This document shows, one piece after another, positions 9,997 to 29,640 of a stretch of DNA of 64,000 bases (within the stretch, counting starts at the first letter, position 1; every line of letters starts with the position of its first letter). The notes under the pieces are model-generated. The model worked only from the letters and a program-made list of their open reading frames with translations. It did no database searches and was not told the origin of the DNA. Both the position numbers and the translations under genes were made by a program. This DNA is from Pseudonocardia broussonetiae (GTDB taxonomy: Bacteria > Actinomycetota > Actinomycetes > Mycobacteriales > Pseudonocardiaceae), in assembly GCF_013155125.1 (NCBI RefSeq), contig NZ_CP053564.1, positions 3,727,501-3,791,500 on the forward strand, in the 5' to 3' direction.

Positions 9997-10599
9997 TCAG
10001 GTCGCCGGGTCCGCCGCCCGCCGCCGGGCGCGGGAGGCGCGGAGGTTGACCGCGTTGCCGCACACCCGCACGTCGTGCCACACCCCGCTGTTGTTGCGCG
10101 AGCGGTCGTAGAACGCGCCGGAGCAGAGGTGGCTGCGGCAGACCTTCAGCCGTCGCCAGGTGTCGGTCTGCTGCGCGCGCTGGACCTCCGCGAGCAGCGC
10201 GCCGGTGAGCCATTCGCGCCCGTCGCCGCGCGGCTCGGCCACGAGCACGCCGTCGGGGCCCAGCGTCAGGCGGACGCGCCCGGTGAGCGCCCGGCCCTCC
10301 GCGGCGTCGGACTCCTCGCCGTCGCGCGCGCGCAGCAGGACCGTGAGCTGCTCGCGCATCCGGAGCAGGCGCGGCAGGTCGCCCGCGGCGAACGGCTCGA
10401 CCTCGGGCCGCGGCGCCCCCGTCCGCTCCGCCCACAGGTCCACCGCGCCGTCGAACCACGCGCGGGCCGTGCCGAGGTCGGCGAGCAGGTCGGCCTGGCG
10501 GGGACGCCCGGCGGCGCGGGTGTTGAGGAAGTCGTGCACCAGCGCGAGCCCGGTCGGGGCGAGATCGACGTCGTAGCGCGCCGAGGCGGACAGGGACAT
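9997..10599 (-). CDS. CGNR zinc-finger (ABATE-like) transcriptional regulator
   Basis: A 200-residue protein with an N-terminal helical domain (TGLALVHDFLNTR at about residues 17-29) typical of ABATE/CGNR proteins. The C-terminal zinc-binding CGNR motif covers about residues 153-190: RLKVCRSHLCSGAFYDRSRN and VRVCGNAVNLRASRARRR, with Cys pairs and the diagnostic CGN. Such proteins are stress-linked DNA-binding regulators. The start ATG is preceded by TACAGT and six bases, which suggests a leaderless transcript. It is divergent from the flavin reductase at 10739 and cotranscribed with the Imm-5-like gene. Confidence 0.85.
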   Translation of the reverse strand: MSLSASARYDVDLAPTGLALVHDFLNTRAAGRPRQADLLADLGTARAWFDGAVDLWAERTGAPRPEVEPFAAGDLPRLLRMREQLTVLLRARDGEESDAAEGRALTGRVRLTLGPDGVLVAEPRGDGREWLTGALLAEVQRAQQTDTWRRLKVCRSHLCSGAFYDRSRNNSGVWHDVRVCGNAVNLRASRARRRAADPAT

Positions 10600-10738
10600 A
10601 TCCGTACTGTACTCGACCCTGTCGTCGTCAAGCGGCCACTCGCCGCGCAGGGGCTTGCTGTGACGCAACTCAGCAGCTTACGGTTATGTCTCCCGTGGGC
10701 CCTCCCGGCTCCGCACCCACCGATCGGAGCCCGACTCG

Positions 10739-11449
10739 ATGATCATCGACGCCTCGACCCTGGACGCCGCCGCCTCCTACAAGCTGCTCATCGGGAGCGT
10801 CCTGCCGCGGGCGATCGGCTGGGTCAGCACCGTGTCGACGACGGGCGTGGCGAACCTCGCCCCGATCTCGTTCTTCACCGTCGTCGGGCGGGTCCCGCCG
10901 ATGGTGTCGCTGTCGATGCAGCCGCGCTCGACCGGCGAGCTGAAGGACACCTTCGTCAACATCCGTGAGACCGGCGAGTTCTGCACCAACCTCGTGTCGC
11001 TGCCGCACGCCCACCAGGCGCACCGCAGTGCGGCCGAGTTCGACTCCGAGATCGACGAGTTCGAGGCCGTCGGCCTGCGCAAGGCGGCGTGCGAGGTCGT
11101 CTCGGCGCCGCGCGTCGAGGGGGCGCCCATCTCCTTCGAGTGCACGCTCGACCGGATCATCCCGATGGGCGACCAGGGCGACCACGTCGTGTTCGGCGAG
11201 GTCCGCCGCTTCCACATCCGCGACGACCTCTACCTCGACGGCGGCCGCATCGACATCGCCGCCCTGCACCCGGTCGGCCGCCTCGCCGCCGAGTACACGC
11301 TGGTCGAGAACGTGTTCACGACCCCGCTCGAGGACGGCCTGGTCGACGGCCGACGCGGCTCGCGGATGCAGCGCCTCGACGACCGCCCCACGGAGTTCTC
11401 GCCGATCGACACCGCGGCGTGGTCCGCCTCCGGTGCCGTCCGCGACTGA
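10739..11449 (+). CDS. Flavin reductase family protein (flavoredoxin-like)
   Basis: A 236-residue split-barrel FMN-binding protein. PRAIGWVSTVSTTGVANLAP and the ISFFTVV...PPMVSLS pattern are the flavin-binding core of the flavin reductase/flavoredoxin family. These proteins bind FMN and reduce it with NAD(P)H or act as electron carriers. It is related to the protein encoded at 47098-47736, which shares the PRPIAWVSTRS...DNLAPHSFFTV region. The next gene is 109 bp downstream behind an 11-bp tandem repeat. The partner enzyme is unknown. Confidence 0.85.
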   Translation: MIIDASTLDAAASYKLLIGSVLPRAIGWVSTVSTTGVANLAPISFFTVVGRVPPMVSLSMQPRSTGELKDTFVNIRETGEFCTNLVSLPHAHQAHRSAAEFDSEIDEFEAVGLRKAACEVVSAPRVEGAPISFECTLDRIIPMGDQGDHVVFGEVRRFHIRDDLYLDGGRIDIAALHPVGRLAAEYTLVENVFTTPLEDGLVDGRRGSRMQRLDDRPTEFSPIDTAAWSASGAVRD

Positions 11450-23428: not shown

Positions 23429-24607
23429 ATGACCGTCACCGCCAACGAGCGCCTCGGCCTCGCACCCACCGACCCCCGCCCGCCCGCCGAGACGCAGCCC
23501 GCGGCCGACCGCACCGAGACCAACCCGCTGTTCGGCGACCAGAAGATGAAGCTGGGCCTGTTCGGGACCAACTGCTCCTACGGCCTGATCATGAGCCACG
23601 CGCCCAGCAGCTACGAGATCACCTGGGAGCACACCAAGGAGATCGCGCAGCGCGCCGACCGGCTCGGGTTCGACGTGCTCGTCCCCGTCGCCCGCTGGAA
23701 GGGCTTCGGCGGGTCCACGAACTTCAACGGCAACTGCTTCGAGACCTACACCTGGGCCGCCGGGGTCGCCGAGGCGACCGAGCGGATCGCGATCGCCGCG
23801 ACCTCCCACCTGCCGACGATGCACCCGATCGTCGCGGCCAAGCAGGCCACGACGGTCGACCGGATCTCCGGGGGCCGCTTCGCGCTGAACATGGTCATGG
23901 GCTGGGTGCCGCCGGAGATGGAGATGTTCGGCTCCGAGCAGCGCGAGCACGACGAGCGCTACGCCTACGGGCAGGAGTGGCTCGACTTCGTGAACAAGCT
24001 CTGGACCGAGCAGGGGACGTTCGGCATCCACTCGACGTACTTCGACGCGGAGCTGCTCGAGGCCTACCCGAAGCCGCACCAGGGCCCGCGGCCCGCGCTG
24101 ATCAACGCGGGCAACTCGCCGTCGGGCATCGAGTTCTCGGCGCGCAACGTCGACTTCAACTTCGCCTCGCTGGACACCCTGGAGAACATCAAGGGGTACA
24201 CGACCAAGCTCAAGGCGAAGGCGCGCGAGGAGTACCAGCGCGAGATCCACGCGATGACCTACGGCCTGGTCGTCTGCCGCGACACCGAGGAGGAGGCGAA
24301 GCGGGCGTTCCAGCAGGTCGTCGACGAGGGCGACTGGGGCGCGGCCGGCAACGTCATCAAGATCGCCGGGTCGGGCGCGAGCCAGTCGTTCGACCACGCC
24401 GTCAAGGAGATGCAGGAGCGCTTCATCGCCGGCTGGGGCGGCTACCCGATCGTCGGCACGCCCGAGCAGGTCACCGAGGAGCTCGGCCGGCTCAACGAGG
24501 CCGGCATGGAGGGCATGATCTTCGGGCTCATCGACTACAACGAGGAGCTCAAGTACTTCGGCGACGAGGTCATGCCCCTGCTCAAGCAGGCGGGCCTACG
24601 GCACTGA
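23429..24607 (+). CDS. LLM-class flavin-dependent monooxygenase (RutA/SfnG-like)
   Basis: A 392-residue luciferase-like TIM-barrel monooxygenase. After a 35-residue unstructured N-terminus, the core reads KMKLGLFGTNCSYGLI, WKGFGGSTNFNGNCFETYTW, ATSHLPTMHPIVAAKQATTV and FALNMVMGWVPPEMEMFG. This resembles pyrimidine monooxygenase RutA and dimethylsulfone monooxygenase SfnG more than F420 enzymes. It probably uses reduced FMN from the nearby flavin reductase to insert oxygen and cleave a C-N or C-S bond (inference). Cotranscribed with aldehyde dehydrogenase. The 3' end overlaps the convergent ATPase gene by 26 bp. Confidence 0.88.
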   Translation: MTVTANERLGLAPTDPRPPAETQPAADRTETNPLFGDQKMKLGLFGTNCSYGLIMSHAPSSYEITWEHTKEIAQRADRLGFDVLVPVARWKGFGGSTNFNGNCFETYTWAAGVAEATERIAIAATSHLPTMHPIVAAKQATTVDRISGGRFALNMVMGWVPPEMEMFGSEQREHDERYAYGQEWLDFVNKLWTEQGTFGIHSTYFDAELLEAYPKPHQGPRPALINAGNSPSGIEFSARNVDFNFASLDTLENIKGYTTKLKAKAREEYQREIHAMTYGLVVCRDTEEEAKRAFQQVVDEGDWGAAGNVIKIAGSGASQSFDHAVKEMQERFIAGWGGYPIVGTPEQVTEELGRLNEAGMEGMIFGLIDYNEELKYFGDEVMPLLKQAGLRH

Positions 24608-25082
24608 CCTCCTGCGCCGCCGTGACGTCGGGCGCGGCGCCGACCGGCCGGCTGACCAGCACCACGGTCGTGCCGGCGGTGCCGCGCTGGATGTGCATCT
24701 CCTCCATGCACCCGCTCATCACGGCCAGGCCGTGGCCGCGGGTGTGGGCGGGCGGGGTGGCGGGCTGGTGGGCGCCCCAGCGGCCGCGGTCGAGCACCGT
24801 GGCCACGACGCGGCGCGCGCCGGCCGTGCGGCGGATCCAGGCGTGCAGGGTGACGGTCCCGGCCGTGCCCGGGTGGTAGGCGTGGTCGACGACGTTGGCG
24901 ACGGCCTCGTTGACGGCCAGCTCCACGTCCTCGGCCTCGTCCTCGGGCCAACCCTGTCCGTTCAGCCAGGTGCGCACCAGCTTGCGCACGGGGCGCAGCG
25001 ACGCGGCGTCGGCGGGCAGCACGGTCATGAGGTCGCCGGGGTGCTCGGGTCGGACGGCGCGGGGCTCGTCGATGGTGGTCAT
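24582..25082 (-). CDS. RsbW-like anti-sigma ATP-binding protein
   Basis: A 166-residue GHKL-type ATPase (HATPase_c_2). The N-box is ELAVNEAVANVVDHAY (residues 55-69), the later ATP-lid glycines are in TRGHGLAVMSGCM, and a final GTTVVLV strand is seen. Such proteins are serine kinases that bind a sigma factor or phosphorylate an antagonist. It is divergent from the ECF-RsbT fusion gene across 236 bp, so it is a plausible second regulator of the same stress circuit, though no antagonist of the RsbV type is next to it. The ATG start follows GAGGAGAGG. Confidence 0.85.
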   Translation of the reverse strand: MTTIDEPRAVRPEHPGDLMTVLPADAASLRPVRKLVRTWLNGQGWPEDEAEDVELAVNEAVANVVDHAYHPGTAGTVTLHAWIRRTAGARRVVATVLDRGRWGAHQPATPPAHTRGHGLAVMSGCMEEMHIQRGTAGTTVVLVSRPVGAAPDVTAAQEVSAVGPPA

Positions 25083-25181
25083 GCCTCTCCTCGCGGCCGC
25101 TCTGCTGGACCGCGGCAGCAGTATCCCCCGAGGCGGGGCCGCCGCGCACCGGCGGACCGGGATCACACAGGGGGGGGCGGG

Positions 25182-25203
25182 CCTCCCGCGTCATCCCGGC
25201 CGG
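25182..25203. repeat. 22-bp element upstream of the stressosome operon
   Basis: A 22-bp word beginning CCTCCCGCGTCATCCC recurs at 28068-28089 with 21 of 22 bases identical. The first copy starts 137 bp before the ECF-RsbT start codon; the second starts 141 bp before the DUF6221 start codon. The similar placement suggests a shared regulatory site. Confidence 0.55.
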
Positions 25204-25318
25204 GTCCCGGACTCCGACGGATCCGTCCGGTCGAGTGACGGTGCGTCGCAGGGCCGGTGGGACTCACCCCGTAGGGCTACGCTCCGCGCTCCGTGAGTGT
25301 CTGTGGAAAGGGGCGGGC

Positions 25319-26398
25319 ATGAGCGCCGCGCACCCCGATCCGCCGCACGAGGGCCCGATCCTGGACCTCGTGCCGATCGTGCGACGGGTGGTGGGGGCGC
25401 GGATCGCCGACGCCGCGACCCGCGAGGACATCGTGCAGGAGACGCTGGCCCGGGTCGTGGCCTCGCGCTCGCGGATCGAGAACGACTCGCTCGTCCCGTA
25501 CGCGGTGACGATCGCACGCAACCTGATCGCCTCGCTGGTGCAGCGCGAGCAGCGGGACCGGCGCAGCGCGCACCTGCTGGCCGACACCGACGACACCGAG
25601 CCCCGCCCCGACGAGGAGCTGCTGCGCCAGGAGGAGGCGTCGACCGTCGCCACCGCCATCGCCCGGCTCCCGGAGGAGGAACGGGCGATCCTGCTGGCGC
25701 ACGAGGTCGACGGCACGGACACGGCCACGCTCGCGGCCGACCGCGGCTCGACGCCGGGCGCGATCGCCGCCCAGCTGAGCCGGACGCGCTCGCGGCTGCG
25801 CGTGGAGTACCTCGTCACGCAGAGCGGGTCCGAGCCGCCCACCGACCGGTGCCTTCCGGTGCTGGTCGCCGTGTCGTCGGGGGACCGGCGACGCCGCCGC
25901 GAGCTCGACGCCGACGGCCACCTCCTGTCCTGCGACTTCTGCAGCAGGCTGGCCCCGGGGCTCGTCCCGCCGCGGGCGCGCCGCCCGGCGACCGACGACA
26001 CCCGCGTCCCCGTGCGCGAGGACGCCGACGTGGTGCTCGTCCGCCAGAAGGGCCGCGAGGTGGCCGCCGCCGCCGGGTTCTCCGGGACGGACCTCACCGT
26101 GATCGCCACCGCGATCTCGGAGATCGCGCGCAACATCGTGAAGTTCGCGGTGCGCGGCGAGTTCGTGTTCTCCGTGCTGGAGGAGGAAGAGGCGGGCGGG
26201 CGGACCGGCGTCCGGGTCGTGGCCCGCGACAGCGGCCCCGGCATCCGGGACGTCGCGCAGGCCCTGGAGGACGGCTACAGCACCTACCGCGGCCTGGGGC
26301 TGGGGCTCCCGGGCGCGCGGCGGCTGATGGACGAGTTCGAGGTGGTCAGCGAGGTCGGGCGCGGCACGACGGTGACGATGACCAAGTGGCGACGATGA
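25319..26398 (+). CDS. ECF sigma factor fused to zinc-finger-like motif and RsbT kinase
   Basis: A 359-residue three-part protein. Residues 12-165 are an ECF sigma factor: region 2 with DIVQETLARV (38-47) and region 4 with a helix-turn-helix ending TPGAIAAQLSRTRSRLR. Residues 178-208 contain C-x22-H-x3-C-x2-C (Cys178, His201, Cys205, Cys208), like the ZAS anti-sigma zinc motif. Residues 230-359 are a full RsbT: SEIARNIVKFA N-box, DSGPGI, and GLGLGLPGARRLMDEF. RsbT normally phosphorylates RsbS and RsbR and is released from the stressosome on stress. Here release would free a sigma factor (inference). Downstream RsbR and RsbS are cotranscribed. Confidence 0.88.
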   Translation: MSAAHPDPPHEGPILDLVPIVRRVVGARIADAATREDIVQETLARVVASRSRIENDSLVPYAVTIARNLIASLVQREQRDRRSAHLLADTDDTEPRPDEELLRQEEASTVATAIARLPEEERAILLAHEVDGTDTATLAADRGSTPGAIAAQLSRTRSRLRVEYLVTQSGSEPPTDRCLPVLVAVSSGDRRRRRELDADGHLLSCDFCSRLAPGLVPPRARRPATDDTRVPVREDADVVLVRQKGREVAAAAGFSGTDLTVIATAISEIARNIVKFAVRGEFVFSVLEEEEAGGRTGVRVVARDSGPGIRDVAQALEDGYSTYRGLGLGLPGARRLMDEFEVVSEVGRGTTVTMTKWRR

Positions 26399-26439
26399 CC
26401 GAGTGGCGGCGTGACGTGATGGACGACGAGGGAGGCACG

Positions 26440-27330
26440 ATGGCAGGGGACGGTCCGTCGGACGTGGAGGAGCACCACCGGCACGAGGAGGACGCGATGC
26501 TGCTGCCCGAGCTCGTCGCCCATCTGCGTGAGCACCGCACCGTGCTGCGCGAGGAGTGGGCGTCGCGGATCAACGAGGCCCACCTGCTGTCCGCGATGAC
26601 ACCGCAGGAGGTGTTCAGCGAGGTCACGTCCGTGTACGACAACTACGTCGGCGTGCTGGAGACGGGCAGCGTCGACGAGCTGCGCGACTACGCCCGGGAC
26701 CTGTCGGAGCGCATCATCCCGCGCGGGGTCGAGACCCACGAGGTCATCGGGATCGTGCTGCTGCTGCGCGACGTCCTGGCCCGCTCGCTGTTCGAGAAGT
26801 ACCGCGACGACTTCGACCTGCTCAACCGGGTCCTCAACGCCTACGAGCCGGCCGCCAACCGCATCGCCACGACCGTCGCGGGGAGCTTCGTCGAGGAGCG
26901 GGAGCGGGTGATCCGCCAGCAGCAGGACTCGCTGCGCGAGCTGTCCACCCCGGTCCTGCAGGTCCGGGAGCGGCTGCTCATCCTGCCGATCATCGGCGTG
27001 CTCGACACCGACCGGGCGCACCAGCTCACCGACCAGCTGCTGCACGCCATCCGCTCGCACCGCGCCCGGGTGGTCGTCATCGACATCACCGGCGTCCCCG
27101 ACGTCGACGAGTCGGTGGCCGACCACCTCGTCAAGACCGTCGATGCCTCGCGGCTGATGGGCGCGGGCGTCATCATCACCGGGCTGTCCTCGGAGATCGC
27201 CCAGACCCTGGTGACGATCGGGGTCGACCTCAGCAAGATGAACACCGTCGGCGACCTGCAGGGCGGCATCGAGGAGGCCGAGCGGCTGCTCGGGTTCCGC
27301 GTCGTCAGGGCGGATGATGCCGACCGCTGA
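26440..27330 (+). CDS. rsbR: RsbR-type stressosome protein
   Basis: A 296-residue stressosome subunit. Residues 20-165 are an all-helical RsbRD-like sensor domain without haem, flavin or PAS signatures, and residues 170-290 are a STAS domain. By alignment with Bacillus RsbRA, the second phosphorylation site is kept as Thr256 (SEIAQTLVTIGVDL). The first site (Thr171 there) is Glu224 here (GVPDVDESVADH). The ATG at 26440 was chosen for its GGGAGG site; an in-frame ATG at 26395 would overlap the previous stop. It overlaps rsbS by 17 bp. Confidence 0.88.
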   Translation: MAGDGPSDVEEHHRHEEDAMLLPELVAHLREHRTVLREEWASRINEAHLLSAMTPQEVFSEVTSVYDNYVGVLETGSVDELRDYARDLSERIIPRGVETHEVIGIVLLLRDVLARSLFEKYRDDFDLLNRVLNAYEPAANRIATTVAGSFVEERERVIRQQQDSLRELSTPVLQVRERLLILPIIGVLDTDRAHQLTDQLLHAIRSHRARVVVIDITGVPDVDESVADHLVKTVDASRLMGAGVIITGLSSEIAQTLVTIGVDLSKMNTVGDLQGGIEEAERLLGFRVVRADDADR

Positions 27331-27727
27331 CCTCGAGCCCTCCGGGCCGCTCCGCGTGTCGATCCTGACGCAGGGCGGCTACCTCGTCGCGTCCGTGCAC
27401 ACGGCGCTCGACGACGGCCAGCTCCTGCGCTTCCGGCGCGACCTCCTCGACCAGATCGGCAGCCGGCGGTCCCGCGGGGTGGTCATCGACGTCGGCGCGC
27501 TCGACGTCATCGACTCGTTCGCCTGCCACACGCTGCGCACCATCGCCGAGGTCGCGCGGCTGCGGGGCGCCGAGACCGTCGTCGTGGGCATCCGGCCCGA
27601 CGTCGCGCTGGCCATGGTGGAGCTCGGCGCCTCGCTGGGCCCCGTGACCACCGCGCTCGACCTCGAGGAGGCGTTCGAGGTGCTCGCCGACCGGGCCGCG
27701 GTGCCCCCGGCCGGGCCGCTGCGATGA
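27314..27727 (+). CDS. rsbS: RsbS-type stressosome STAS protein
   Basis: A 137-residue single STAS domain. VVIDVGALDVIDSFACHTLR carries the phosphorylatable Ser68, equivalent to Ser59 of Bacillus RsbS, and LALVELG-like and LDLEEAFEVL segments match RsbS closely. It would form the stressosome core with RsbR and hold the RsbT-containing sigma fusion. A second ATG follows immediately, so the start may be one codon later. It overlaps rsbR upstream and the RsbU-like gene downstream by four bases (ATGA), implying coupled synthesis. Confidence 0.92.
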   Translation: MMPTADLEPSGPLRVSILTQGGYLVASVHTALDDGQLLRFRRDLLDQIGSRRSRGVVIDVGALDVIDSFACHTLRTIAEVARLRGAETVVVGIRPDVALAMVELGASLGPVTTALDLEEAFEVLADRAAVPPAGPLR

Positions 27728-28053
27728 GCGCCGCCCTCGAGCGCCTGCGCCGCAACTACGGCGTCGGTTTCCTGCGCTACCTGGGCCGCCGCGACGAGAG
27801 CTCGCTGCTGTCGGCCTACGAGATCGGCCGCGCCGGGCTGACCGGCGGGGTCGGCCTGCTCGACGTCGTCCAGGTCCACCACACCGTCCTCCTCGACGCC
27901 CTGCGCACGGCCCGCCCCGACGAGATCGAGGACGTCGCCGAGGCGGCGGCCGCGTTCCTCGTCGAGGTGCTGGCCTCCTTCGAGATGACGAACCGCGCGG
28001 CCCTGGCCCGCGCCGCGGCGCCGCCGCGAGGCGACGCCCCCACCTCCTCCTGA
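27724..28053 (+). CDS. Stand-alone RsbU N-terminal (RsbT-binding) domain protein
   Basis: A 109-residue helical protein. RLRRNYGVGFLRYLGRRDES, LLSAYEIGRAGLTGGVGLLD and VVQVHHTVLLDAL match the N-terminal domain of the phosphatase RsbU, the part that RsbT binds to switch RsbU on. No PP2C phosphatase domain follows: the frame ends normally at 28053, 155 bp before the next gene. It is therefore likely an adaptor or competitor for the RsbT domain of the sigma fusion rather than an enzyme (inference). Last gene of the stressosome operon. Confidence 0.85.
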   Translation: MSAALERLRRNYGVGFLRYLGRRDESSLLSAYEIGRAGLTGGVGLLDVVQVHHTVLLDALRTARPDEIEDVAEAAAAFLVEVLASFEMTNRAALARAAAPPRGDAPTSS

Positions 28054-28067
28054 CCAGCGGGTTCCTC

Positions 28068-28089
28068 CCTCCCGCGTCATCCCCGCCGG
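28068..28089. repeat. Second copy of the 22-bp element
   Basis: Differs at one position from the element at 25182-25203. It lies between the end of the stressosome operon and the DUF6221-like gene, 141 bp before that start codon. Confidence 0.55.
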
Positions 28090-28208
28090 TGCGGGCCGTC
28101 CCCATGTGTGACGTCCTGACATCCGGCGCGAGCCGGCCACCGTCTCCGGGCGGGGCGGTGCGGGCACATGCCGCCGCCCCGTCCGGGGCCACCGGGAGGA
28201 GACCCCTG

Positions 28209-28604
28209 ATGACCACCCACGACGATCCCCGCGGAACGGACGCCGACCCCCGGCTCGAGGGCCTCGCGCGGTTCCTGCTGGCGCGGCTCGACGAGGACGA
28301 GGCGGCGGCGCGGGCGGTGGTGCTCTCCGGGGACCTGCTCCCGTACGAGTCGATCCTGCAGACCGCCGACCACGGCGCCCGGCACGGCCCGCTGCGGGTC
28401 CTGCGCGAGGTGGCGGCCACGAAGGCGGCGGTGTCGCGCATCCTCGAGGCCGGGCCGCCCGGGTCCGACCCGGCGCACGCGCTCGTCGCGGCCCTCGCCT
28501 GCGTGTTCGCCGAGCACCCGGACTTCGACCCGGAGTGGCTGGCCGTCGTCGACGAGGGGACCGAGACGCCCGACAACGTCGTGCAGCTCCCGCTGCTCGG
28601 CTGA
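28209..28604 (+). CDS. DUF6221-like protein
   Basis: A 131-residue soluble protein. GLARFLLARLDEDEAAARAV, HGARHGPLRVLREVAATKAAV and VFAEHPDFDPEWL follow the DUF6221 pattern, a common actinobacterial small protein of unknown function. In typical members a longer Trp-containing segment follows the first helix; here it is short. The ATG has a GGGAGGAG site. The shared 22-bp element suggests coregulation with the stressosome operon. Confidence 0.7.
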   Translation: MTTHDDPRGTDADPRLEGLARFLLARLDEDEAAARAVVLSGDLLPYESILQTADHGARHGPLRVLREVAATKAAVSRILEAGPPGSDPAHALVAALACVFAEHPDFDPEWLAVVDEGTETPDNVVQLPLLG

Positions 28605-28671: not shown

Positions 28672-29640
28672 GTGGACGCGCTGCCGGAGCCGGTGAGCCC
28701 GATGCTCGCGACCGCCGGCGACCCGCCGGCGGGGCCGGGCTGGGCGGTCGAGTTCAAGTGGGACGGCGTGCGCGCCGTGCTCGCCGCCGCGGGCGACGCG
28801 GTGCGGATCGCCAGCCGCAACGGCAACGACATCACCGGCGGCTACCCCGAGATCGTCGCGGCCGGGATCGGCGCGGGGCGCTCGGTGCTCGTCGACGGGG
28901 AGCTCGTCGCGCTCGACGCGCAGGGCCGGCCCGACTTCGGGCTGCTGCAGCAGCGGATGCACGTGCGCGGCCCCGCGCCCGAGCTGCGCGAGCGCGTCCC
29001 GGTCCTGTTCTACGTGTTCGACGTGCTGGTCCTCGACGGCGCGAGCCTGCTGCCCGAGCCCTACGACGCGCGGCGCGAGGTGCTGCTGGGCCTCGGCCTG
29101 GACGCGCTGCCGGGTGTCGGCGTGCCGCCCTCGGTGCCCGACGTCAGCGGGGCGCAGATGCTCGAGGTCGCCCGGCAGCACGGGCTGGAGGGCATCGTCG
29201 CGAAGCGGCGCGCGGCCCGCTACGACCCGGGGCGGCGGTCACCGGCGTGGGTCAAGACGGCGCTGGTGCGGACCCAGGAGGTGCTCGTCGGCGGCTGGAG
29301 CCCCGGACAGGGCCGCCGGGCGTCGACGATGGGAGCGCTGCTGCTGGGCGCCCGCGACCGCGCCGGGCGGCTGCGCTACCTCGGCCACGTCGGCACCGGC
29401 TTCACCGAGGCGGTGCTGCGCGACCTGATGGCCCGCATGGCCCCGCTGCGGCGCGACCGCAGCCCCTTCGACGAGGAGGTGCCCCGCGAGCACGTCCGCG
29501 GCGTGCGGTGGGTGGAGCCGCGGCTGGTGGGGGAGGTGCGCTATCGCACGCTGACCACCGACGGCCGGCTCCGGCACGCGGCGTGGCGCGGGCTGCGCCC
29601 GGACCGGGATCCCGACGAGATCGTGCTCGACCTGCCGTGA
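28672..29640 (+). CDS. ATP-dependent DNA ligase (LigD ligase-domain type)
   Basis: A 322-residue ligase. The nucleotidyltransferase motif I is FKWDGVR with adenylated Lys29. Motifs RNGNDITGGYPEI, LVDGELVAL, GLEGIVAKRRAARYDPG and the WVKTALVRTQEVLVGGW block link the adenylation and OB domains. It corresponds to the ligase module of LigD without polymerase or nuclease modules and may seal nicks in repair or end joining. The GTG start lies six bases after CAGTCT, which suggests a leaderless message. The next gene starts 13 bp downstream. Confidence 0.9.
   Translation: MDALPEPVSPMLATAGDPPAGPGWAVEFKWDGVRAVLAAAGDAVRIASRNGNDITGGYPEIVAAGIGAGRSVLVDGELVALDAQGRPDFGLLQQRMHVRGPAPELRERVPVLFYVFDVLVLDGASLLPEPYDARREVLLGLGLDALPGVGVPPSVPDVSGAQMLEVARQHGLEGIVAKRRAARYDPGRRSPAWVKTALVRTQEVLVGGWSPGQGRRASTMGALLLGARDRAGRLRYLGHVGTGFTEAVLRDLMARMAPLRRDRSPFDEEVPREHVRGVRWVEPRLVGEVRYRTLTTDGRLRHAAWRGLRPDRDPDEIVLDLP

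Follow-up and report, generated by a model that had tools for sequence, protein, structure and literature searches.

An operon joining an ECF sigma factor to the stressosome kinase RsbT in Pseudonocardia broussonetiae and other actinobacteria

The route from the Bacillus stressosome to its sigma factor runs through RsbT, RsbU, RsbV, RsbW, and SigB. We analyzed a 64,000-nt stretch of Pseudonocardia broussonetiae DNA (assembly GCF_013155125.1, contig NZ_CP053564.1, positions 3,727,501–3,791,500; hereafter the window), in which a stressosome operon of four genes occupies positions 25319–28053 and its first product carries an extracytoplasmic function (ECF) sigma factor and the switch kinase RsbT in one polypeptide. 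As in the RsbR-RsbS-RsbT-RsbU-SigB systems of Bacillus and Listeria, RsbR, RsbS, and an RsbT-type kinase are encoded together, and the phosphoserine of RsbS, the ATP-site residues of RsbT, and the RsbT-contact glutamate of the RsbU N-terminal domain (RsbU_N) are kept. The locus differs from those systems in the fusion of RsbT to an ECF sigma factor, in an RsbU without phosphatase, and in the gene order T-R-S-U_N. A further difference is that neither RsbV nor SigB was found among the Pfam-typed neighbors in the window, although a divergent gene for an RsbW-like ATPase is present upstream.

Other described systems share single features with this locus; their publications are cited here by PMC number, each for the parts of it that were covered. 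RsbT has been described as acting through a phosphatase, a histidine kinase, or a cyclase that bears RsbU_N (PMC12143880). In such effectors (PP2C, histidine kinase, GGDEF), RsbU_N receives RsbT, as it would here, but the output is fused to RsbU_N (PMC12143880, PMC9237108), whereas in the present locus it is RsbT that carries the output, and RsbU_N is a protein by itself. Eleven downstream architectures are reported for globin-type RsbRST modules, and no sigma fusion is among the RsbRST outputs in the parts of PMC9237108 covered. In the groups ECF48, ECF52, and ECF53 (e.g., SCO4117), the ECF sigma factor likewise continues into a zinc-finger segment and then into a C-terminal extension with a regulatory role (PMC8999054, PMC5826349). 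They differ in that RsbT here replaces the membrane and extracytoplasmic part, and in that the partners here are cytoplasmic proteins whereas proteolysis is presumed there. The EcfG-NepR-PhyR system also places an ECF sigma factor under a partner switch (PMC8999054), but our cassette contains neither NepR nor PhyR and has kinase and sigma factor in one polypeptide. An RsbT or HATPase extension is not named in Tables 1 and 2 of PMC8999054, which give group numbers and not domains. Such a fusion is also unnamed in the titles and abstract openings of the open-licence papers listed by the literature searches, which is no proof of its being unpublished.

The fusion gene (25319–26398, + strand) encodes 359 amino acids in a frame without internal stop. 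Sigma70_r2 (aa 18–79), Sigma70_r4_2 (aa 111–160), and HATPase_c_2 (aa 236–356) all matched above the curated Pfam cut-offs. In NCBIfam, the protein matched the sigma70-ECF model at 4.9e-19, and its last third matched the SpoIIAB model at 1.2e-11, which is under that model's cut-off. The sigma part has the ECF (sigma70 group 4) layout, with regions 2 and 4 present and region 3 absent. It is followed at aa 178–208 by a zinc-finger-like segment, C178-x22-H201-x3-C205-x2-C208, and none of the four motif residues varies among 84 aligned homologues. The RsbT part is a complete C-terminal domain and is preceded by a short segment (aa 218–225) with a predicted-structure confidence (pLDDT) below 50. 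The Pfam matches and the exact motif thus confirm a first-pass annotation, made from the letters alone, that had read ECF regions 2 and 4, this motif, and an RsbT ATPase in a single protein. N272, R242, and R246 of the RsbT part are each invariant in the same 84 homologues, and the Bergerat ATP-binding residues, as assigned here, are kept. We take N272 to be N49 of RsbT, and R242 and R246 to be the RsbU-contact residues R19 and R23. N49 is required for kinase activity in Listeria (PMC7705745), and R19 and R23 touch RsbU (PMC12143880).

Three partner genes follow on the + strand. The RsbR co-antagonist (26419–27330) consists of an N-terminal region and a STAS domain. The latter is over the Pfam cut-off, the RsbRD_N match is below it (19.3 vs 24.3 bits), and phmmer aligned the protein at 3.5e-31 with the solved RsbR 9o4h, presumably a Listeria protein. 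The RsbS antagonist (27314–27727) is a single STAS domain by Pfam and matched the solved RsbS 6qcm at 2.1e-21, with Ser68 aligned to Ser56 of 6qcm_A. The last gene (27724–28053) encodes a stand-alone RsbU_N, the RsbT-binding domain (Pfam, 5.4e-11), in which Glu25 is aligned to Glu24 of the solved RsbU 2j6z. This protein has no C-terminal PP2C phosphatase; its open reading frame (ORF) ends after RsbU_N, in the window as in the other loci whose end was covered. The first-pass annotation had described overlapping RsbR, RsbS, and RsbU_N genes behind the fusion. Order, strand, and the RsbR/RsbS and RsbS/RsbU_N overlaps stand, and an overlap between fusion and RsbR genes exists only if RsbR starts at an alternative in-frame ATG at 26395, which would overlap the fusion TGA. 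That annotation left the lone RsbU_N domain without explanation.

In a search for homologues of the fusion protein, the 7991 best candidates were scored, and 2550 of them proved to be relatives. Among the 120 matches listed, one of which may be the window's own protein, 119 have Sigma70_r2 and HATPase_c_2 in one chain; the remaining one (P0027) gave no sigma call. Fusion frames free of internal stops were present in 24 of the 149 genomes and 7 of the 53 genera of a second family within this class (f7 below). In a scan of species genomes, nine near-full-length fusion relatives were among the best 80 of 554 matches, in records of Nocardioidaceae, Nocardioides, Modestobacter, Propionibacteriaceae, Euzebyaceae, and Acidimicrobiales, and the other 71 of those 80 aligned in the RsbT part or slightly before it. 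The sigma part of one fusion locus, L053, is divided over two frames. Six loci considered as additional sigma fusions because of their longer RsbT matches (L075, L077, L079, L082, L089, and L099) were rejected; the sigma model gave no match, and they contain free RsbT genes with RsbR and RsbS ahead (undetected in L082) and an RsbU_N protein behind. In two free-RsbT loci, L073 and L077 (Rokuibacteriota and Acidobacteria records), RsbU_N is followed by what looks by eye like a histidine-kinase tail, a type already described for Proteobacteria.

The occurrence of the fusion is patchy, and it is rare near the host. It was found in 4 of 396 genomes of the phylum, the window's own included (top 5 candidates scored per genome), in 1 of 249 genomes of the host family (top 8 candidates scored per genome), and in 1 of 62 genomes of the host genus, where eight other matches span RsbT alone. 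A fusion common among the relatives of the host is thereby rejected. The first-pass annotation had named absence from relatives, as well as an error joining two genes, as grounds for abandoning its proposal. The fusion is indeed scarce locally, and it recurs together with its operon in other actinobacterial families. A sequencing error or chance join is excluded by the 119 of 120 homologues, by the open frames in the 24 f7 genomes, and by the conserved loci described below.

We assembled 29 distinct fusion loci, namely the window, nine loci of the scan, and nineteen others; several are closely related, and L178, a copy of L049, was left out. RsbR and RsbS follow the fusion in all 29, and the fusion is therefore not a sequencing artefact. 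A stand-alone RsbU_N was detected in 26 of the 29, is partial at a contig end in L053, and is cut off in L050. The RsbU_N ORFs stop 0–23 aa past the match (42 aa in the partial L053), and therefore leave no room for a phosphatase. In canonical stressosome loci of the same scan, RsbT comes after RsbR and RsbS, and the RsbU_N protein seen behind it in some of them is longer. In the RsbT tree, a branch with a Shimodaira–Hasegawa-like approximate likelihood ratio test (SH-aLRT) support of 94 separates all 29 fusion sequences from 81 canonical rows, and in the RsbR tree a branch with a support of 99 separates all 29 from 71 canonical rows. The trees are quick ones; the RsbT alignment is short, and several canonical RsbR rows form long branches. 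The simplest reading of these trees would be one origin of the cassette and its spread as a unit. Conserved neighbor genes outside the cassette were found only within f7.

The signalling residues were compared between the fusion loci and the canonical loci, 75 of 81 of which provided rows for RsbR and RsbS. Serine occupies the phosphoserine site of RsbS in all 29 fusion loci and in all but one of the 75 canonical rows. The RsbT-contact glutamate of RsbU_N is kept without exception, in 27 fusion rows and 63 canonical ones. In regards to RsbR, the Thr171-type site is serine or threonine in 21 of 29 fusion loci vs 37 of 75 canonical rows, and the Thr205-type site in 1 of 29 vs 57 of 75, which is a further difference from Bacillus and Listeria. 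The residues found at the latter in the fusion loci are E (16), Q (6), V (3), A (2), H (1), and T (1). The window RsbR has Thr197 and Glu231 at the two sites, respectively. When the protein is aligned to 9o4h, which itself carries Glu at this position, Glu231 corresponds to Listeria Thr209 (PMC7705745); Thr205 of RsbR is, according to PMC3944199, a late inhibitory site. Canonical rows also vary at both sites, which are characteristic rather than defining, and the contrast between the two sets amounts to one or a few events because the rows share ancestry.

We also counted RsbU_N domains in 25 fusion genomes (18 of the 24 from f7, the window's, two of another family, and four named ones). At E values up to 1e-3, each contained exactly one, always at the cassette position; among 14 control genomes, only Bacillus subtilis gave a match. 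The described route from RsbT through an RsbU_N effector is thus undetectable in these genomes. Since the RsbU_N of the cassette is the sole one found in 25 of 25 genomes, RsbT has no effector with this domain left to act on, which makes the fused sigma factor the likeliest output.

A new promoter-like motif, CGCGTCAT-N17-GTC, was found repeatedly next to fusion cassettes of independent lineages. In the window it occurs at 28073–28100 (+), 3' of the operon and 5' of a DUF6221 gene (28209–28604, +; typed by Pfam, start codon chosen by eye), which is its candidate target. A weaker and speculative candidate for the operon promoter, with CTC for GTC, lies at 25187–25214 (+) and begins 132 nt 5' of the fusion start. 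The motif was first noticed 5' of two f7 neighbor genes and in the window, and the spacing rule was fixed before all loci were scanned; the CGCGTCAT core alone was already visible 5' of L046 and L048 before that. The ten non-f7 loci (130,305 bp) contained 21 CGCGTCAT sites vs 4.5 expected. GTC stood at offset 17 in 9 of these 21 and at no other offset from 10 to 29 (P 4e-9 at a GTC rate of 0.03); the counts at offsets 8, 9, and 30 were 1, 2, and 3. In the f7 loci (215,017 bp, discovery sites included), offset 17 was found in 21 of 44 sites and no other offset between 10 and 29 in more than 2, and offset 30 was found in 9, a conserved stretch of the RsbR gene contributing. The spacing occurred in 1 of 80 CGCGTCAT sites in canonical loci (n = 71, with a lower GC content of 0.60) and in 0 of 2 in six loci of relatives without RsbT. 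None of 31 N17 sites falls inside a cassette gene vs 16 of 37 other CGCGTCAT sites.

An exact N17 site is present in 21 of the 29 fusion loci, and thirty unique sites gave the consensus ccCGCGTCATG-N13-ggcGTCt. In Nocardioides (L048), the motif precedes the fusion gene itself, GTC lying 64 nt ahead of the start codon. Other sites examined precede genes for a PRC-barrel protein (L051), an alpha-amylase family protein (L047), and small proteins (L046). The exact motif also stands 5' of a protein with an LDLLGLVIDL-type motif in L164, L168, L169, L173, and L174, with near variants elsewhere. Across whole f7 genomes, CGCGTCAT-N17-GTCTTC with at most one mismatch averaged 3.9 sites in the 24 fusion genomes vs 1.7 in 125 others (p 4e-7), whereas a reversed-pattern control gave 0.67 vs 0.62, which is no difference. 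The mean was 1.9 in 17 fusion-lacking genomes from fusion genera, and after removal of the sites in the fetched cassette stretches it was 3.1 in 18 fusion genomes vs 1.7 (p 0.001). Exact matches were found in 10 of 24 fusion genomes and 3 of 125 others (p 4e-7).

The first-pass annotation proposed that the stressosome directly holds and releases the sigma factor. This reading gains support from the sole RsbU_N in 25 of 25 genomes, the conserved RsbS and RsbT residues, and the recurring motif; sequestration, release, the role of RsbU_N, and the sigma reading of the motif are what we infer from these sequence data. We consider it probable that the locus encodes a stressosome whose output sigma factor is covalently joined to the switch kinase, stored, and released on stress, with RsbU_N as a partner. 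In unstressed cells, the RsbT domain would dock on the RsbR/RsbS shell and keep the ECF sigma factor on a megadalton complex and off RNA polymerase, perhaps aided by the zinc-finger-like segment beside sigma region 4. When RsbR senses stress, RsbT would phosphorylate Ser68 of RsbS, and the entire sigma-RsbT protein would be freed. The lone RsbU_N would take the freed RsbT domain as alternative partner and most likely stabilize the released form, probably as a dimer. The freed sigma factor would then transcribe a few promoters, with CGCGTCAT as a −35-like and GTC as a −10-like element 17 nt apart, located near the cassette and in some lineages ahead of the cassette itself. With somewhat less assurance, we favor the view that a stressosome-stored sigma factor carrying its own kinase and freeing itself through phosphorylation of the shell protein, with one-step transcription and the once phosphatase-activating RsbU_N as the free partner of the released sigma factor, forms a distinct signalling class.

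Several results weigh against this mechanism or parts of it. RsbU_N was undetected in L052 despite 9 kb of downstream sequence, the rest of the cassette being kept. RsbX was not identified beside the cassette with a weak probe, a PP2C probe partly made from histidine-kinase tails; L163 alone gave two weak matches, 3–5 kb downstream. In eight of the 29 loci, the sequence examined contains no exact N17 site. Autoregulation of the f7 cassettes through the motif was not found, and a TANNNT box stands 5' of the cassette instead. Without the seven discovery sites, the excess of exact f7 matches weakened to 5 of 24 vs 3 of 125 genomes (p 0.003), and without the sites within ~5 kb of the cassette as well, it fell to 3 of 24 (p 0.05). 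Two of these three genomes are near-identical, and genomes of one genus are not independent. The window genome showed no spacing peak (N17 in 4 of 64 CGCGTCAT-N12..22-GTC matches, lengths by eye; 44 matches for the reversed control), and there was no clear peak in four of six other fusion genomes, also by eye, with 1/7 expected (6 of 35 in G731, 7 of 50 in G722, 7 of 40 in G836, and 4 of 9 in G837). Match counts for motif and reversed control were 50 and 7 in G722, 35 and 7 in G731, 40 and 9 in G836, 9 and 19 in G837, 22 and 6 in G838, and 17 and 20 in G839. A large regulon is rejected for lack of a clear peak in the window genome and the four others; a small, local regulon or drifted boxes are the probable explanations.

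The TANNNT box in f7, picked by eye, reached at least 7 of 9 matches in 19 of 28 loci, whereas shuffled sequences gave a mean of 7.6 and a maximum of 14 in 200 trials. It lies ~6 nt ahead of a GTG start, for example in L162, L165, and L168. This suggests that the f7 cassette promoter may be leaderless and of a housekeeping type.

RsbU_N could instead be a brake, a soluble anti-sigma factor that holds the freed sigma-RsbT protein while the stressosome tunes the free amount; this variant is compatible with the core of the proposed mechanism. It would account for a domain that has no effector part left and yet is kept in nearly all cassettes with an invariant RsbT-contact glutamate, and soluble anti-sigma proteins serve several ECF groups (PMC8999054). 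In described systems, however, the binding of RsbT to RsbU_N follows release and activates (PMC12143880), and L052 apparently keeps the rest of the cassette without RsbU_N. We regard the brake as rather unlikely.

The CGCGTCAT-N17-GTC motif may also belong to another regulator near the cassettes, either a repressor or another sigma factor. The TANNNT box rather than the motif ahead of the f7 fusion, and the spacing results in the window genome and the four others, fit this explanation. The exact spacing beside cassettes, its near absence from canonical loci, and the motif excess in the fusion genomes within f7 speak against it, and we find a foreign regulator rather unlikely.

The sigma-zinc module is portable. 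Six genomes of the phylum from two other actinobacterial families (L129–L133 and L136) carry the same sigma part and zinc segment without RsbT. The model matches these proteins to positions ~6–221, followed by a hydrophobic stretch, called membrane by eye, and a further region; the tail gave no Pfam match over the cut-off. They resemble the layout of ECF48, ECF52, and ECF53 (PMC8999054, PMC5826349). Since these relatives carry another tail there, RsbT occupies the position of the regulatory tail. The zinc motif is invariant in 15 of 15 segments, six of them from relatives without RsbT. The segment might be an in-built anti-sigma domain of the ECF52 type and the main redox or metal switch, the stressosome only positioning the protein. 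The Hx3Cx2C part directly after sigma region 4, invariant in the 84 fusions as well, and the combination of sigma factor, zinc finger, and membrane part in ECF48, ECF52, and ECF53 (PMC8999054) are in keeping with such a switch. Against it, Pfam gave no zf-HC2 match in the segment, and the search of solved structures reached the anti-sigma chain 3hug_B only at an E value of 3.6, ranked under unrelated chains; we consider it unlikely. Mere co-production, with a constitutive or zinc-controlled sigma factor and an RsbT that signals separately to another effector, would suit a complete RsbT domain behind the low-confidence aa 218–225 and a sigma-zinc module that also occurs without RsbT, but is very improbable given that no further RsbU_N protein was detected in 25 of 25 fusion genomes and that the fusion is kept across families with RsbT and RsbR parts that each form one clade.

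In regards to neighboring genes, the divergent HATPase_c_2 (RsbW-like) gene of the window (24582–25088, −) lies directly 5' of the fusion and matched nothing in the other fusion loci at 1e-5. Downstream, an ATP-dependent DNA ligase gene with A_M and A_C domains (28672–29640, +) is an unrelated neighbor. Fifteen f7 loci (L162–L170 and L172–L177) encode, within ~4 kb of the cassette and on either side of it, a protein that looks secreted and has an LDLLGLVIDL-type motif in repeats; the one tested gave no Pfam match. A small MTVIAF protein is another f7 neighbor. In L054, another STAS protein resembling RsbS is encoded downstream of the cassette (10450–10800).

Several relay steps of the stress response thus appear to be cut to one in some soil actinobacteria. 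What makes RsbT leave the stressosome is debated, and because kinase and sigma factor are one protein here, this step would be readable as transcription. The operon offers a four-gene system with a candidate promoter for reading the release of RsbT. The fusion also suggests that an output can be attached to RsbT as well as to RsbU_N, and it suggests a natural design of a one-step stress switch.

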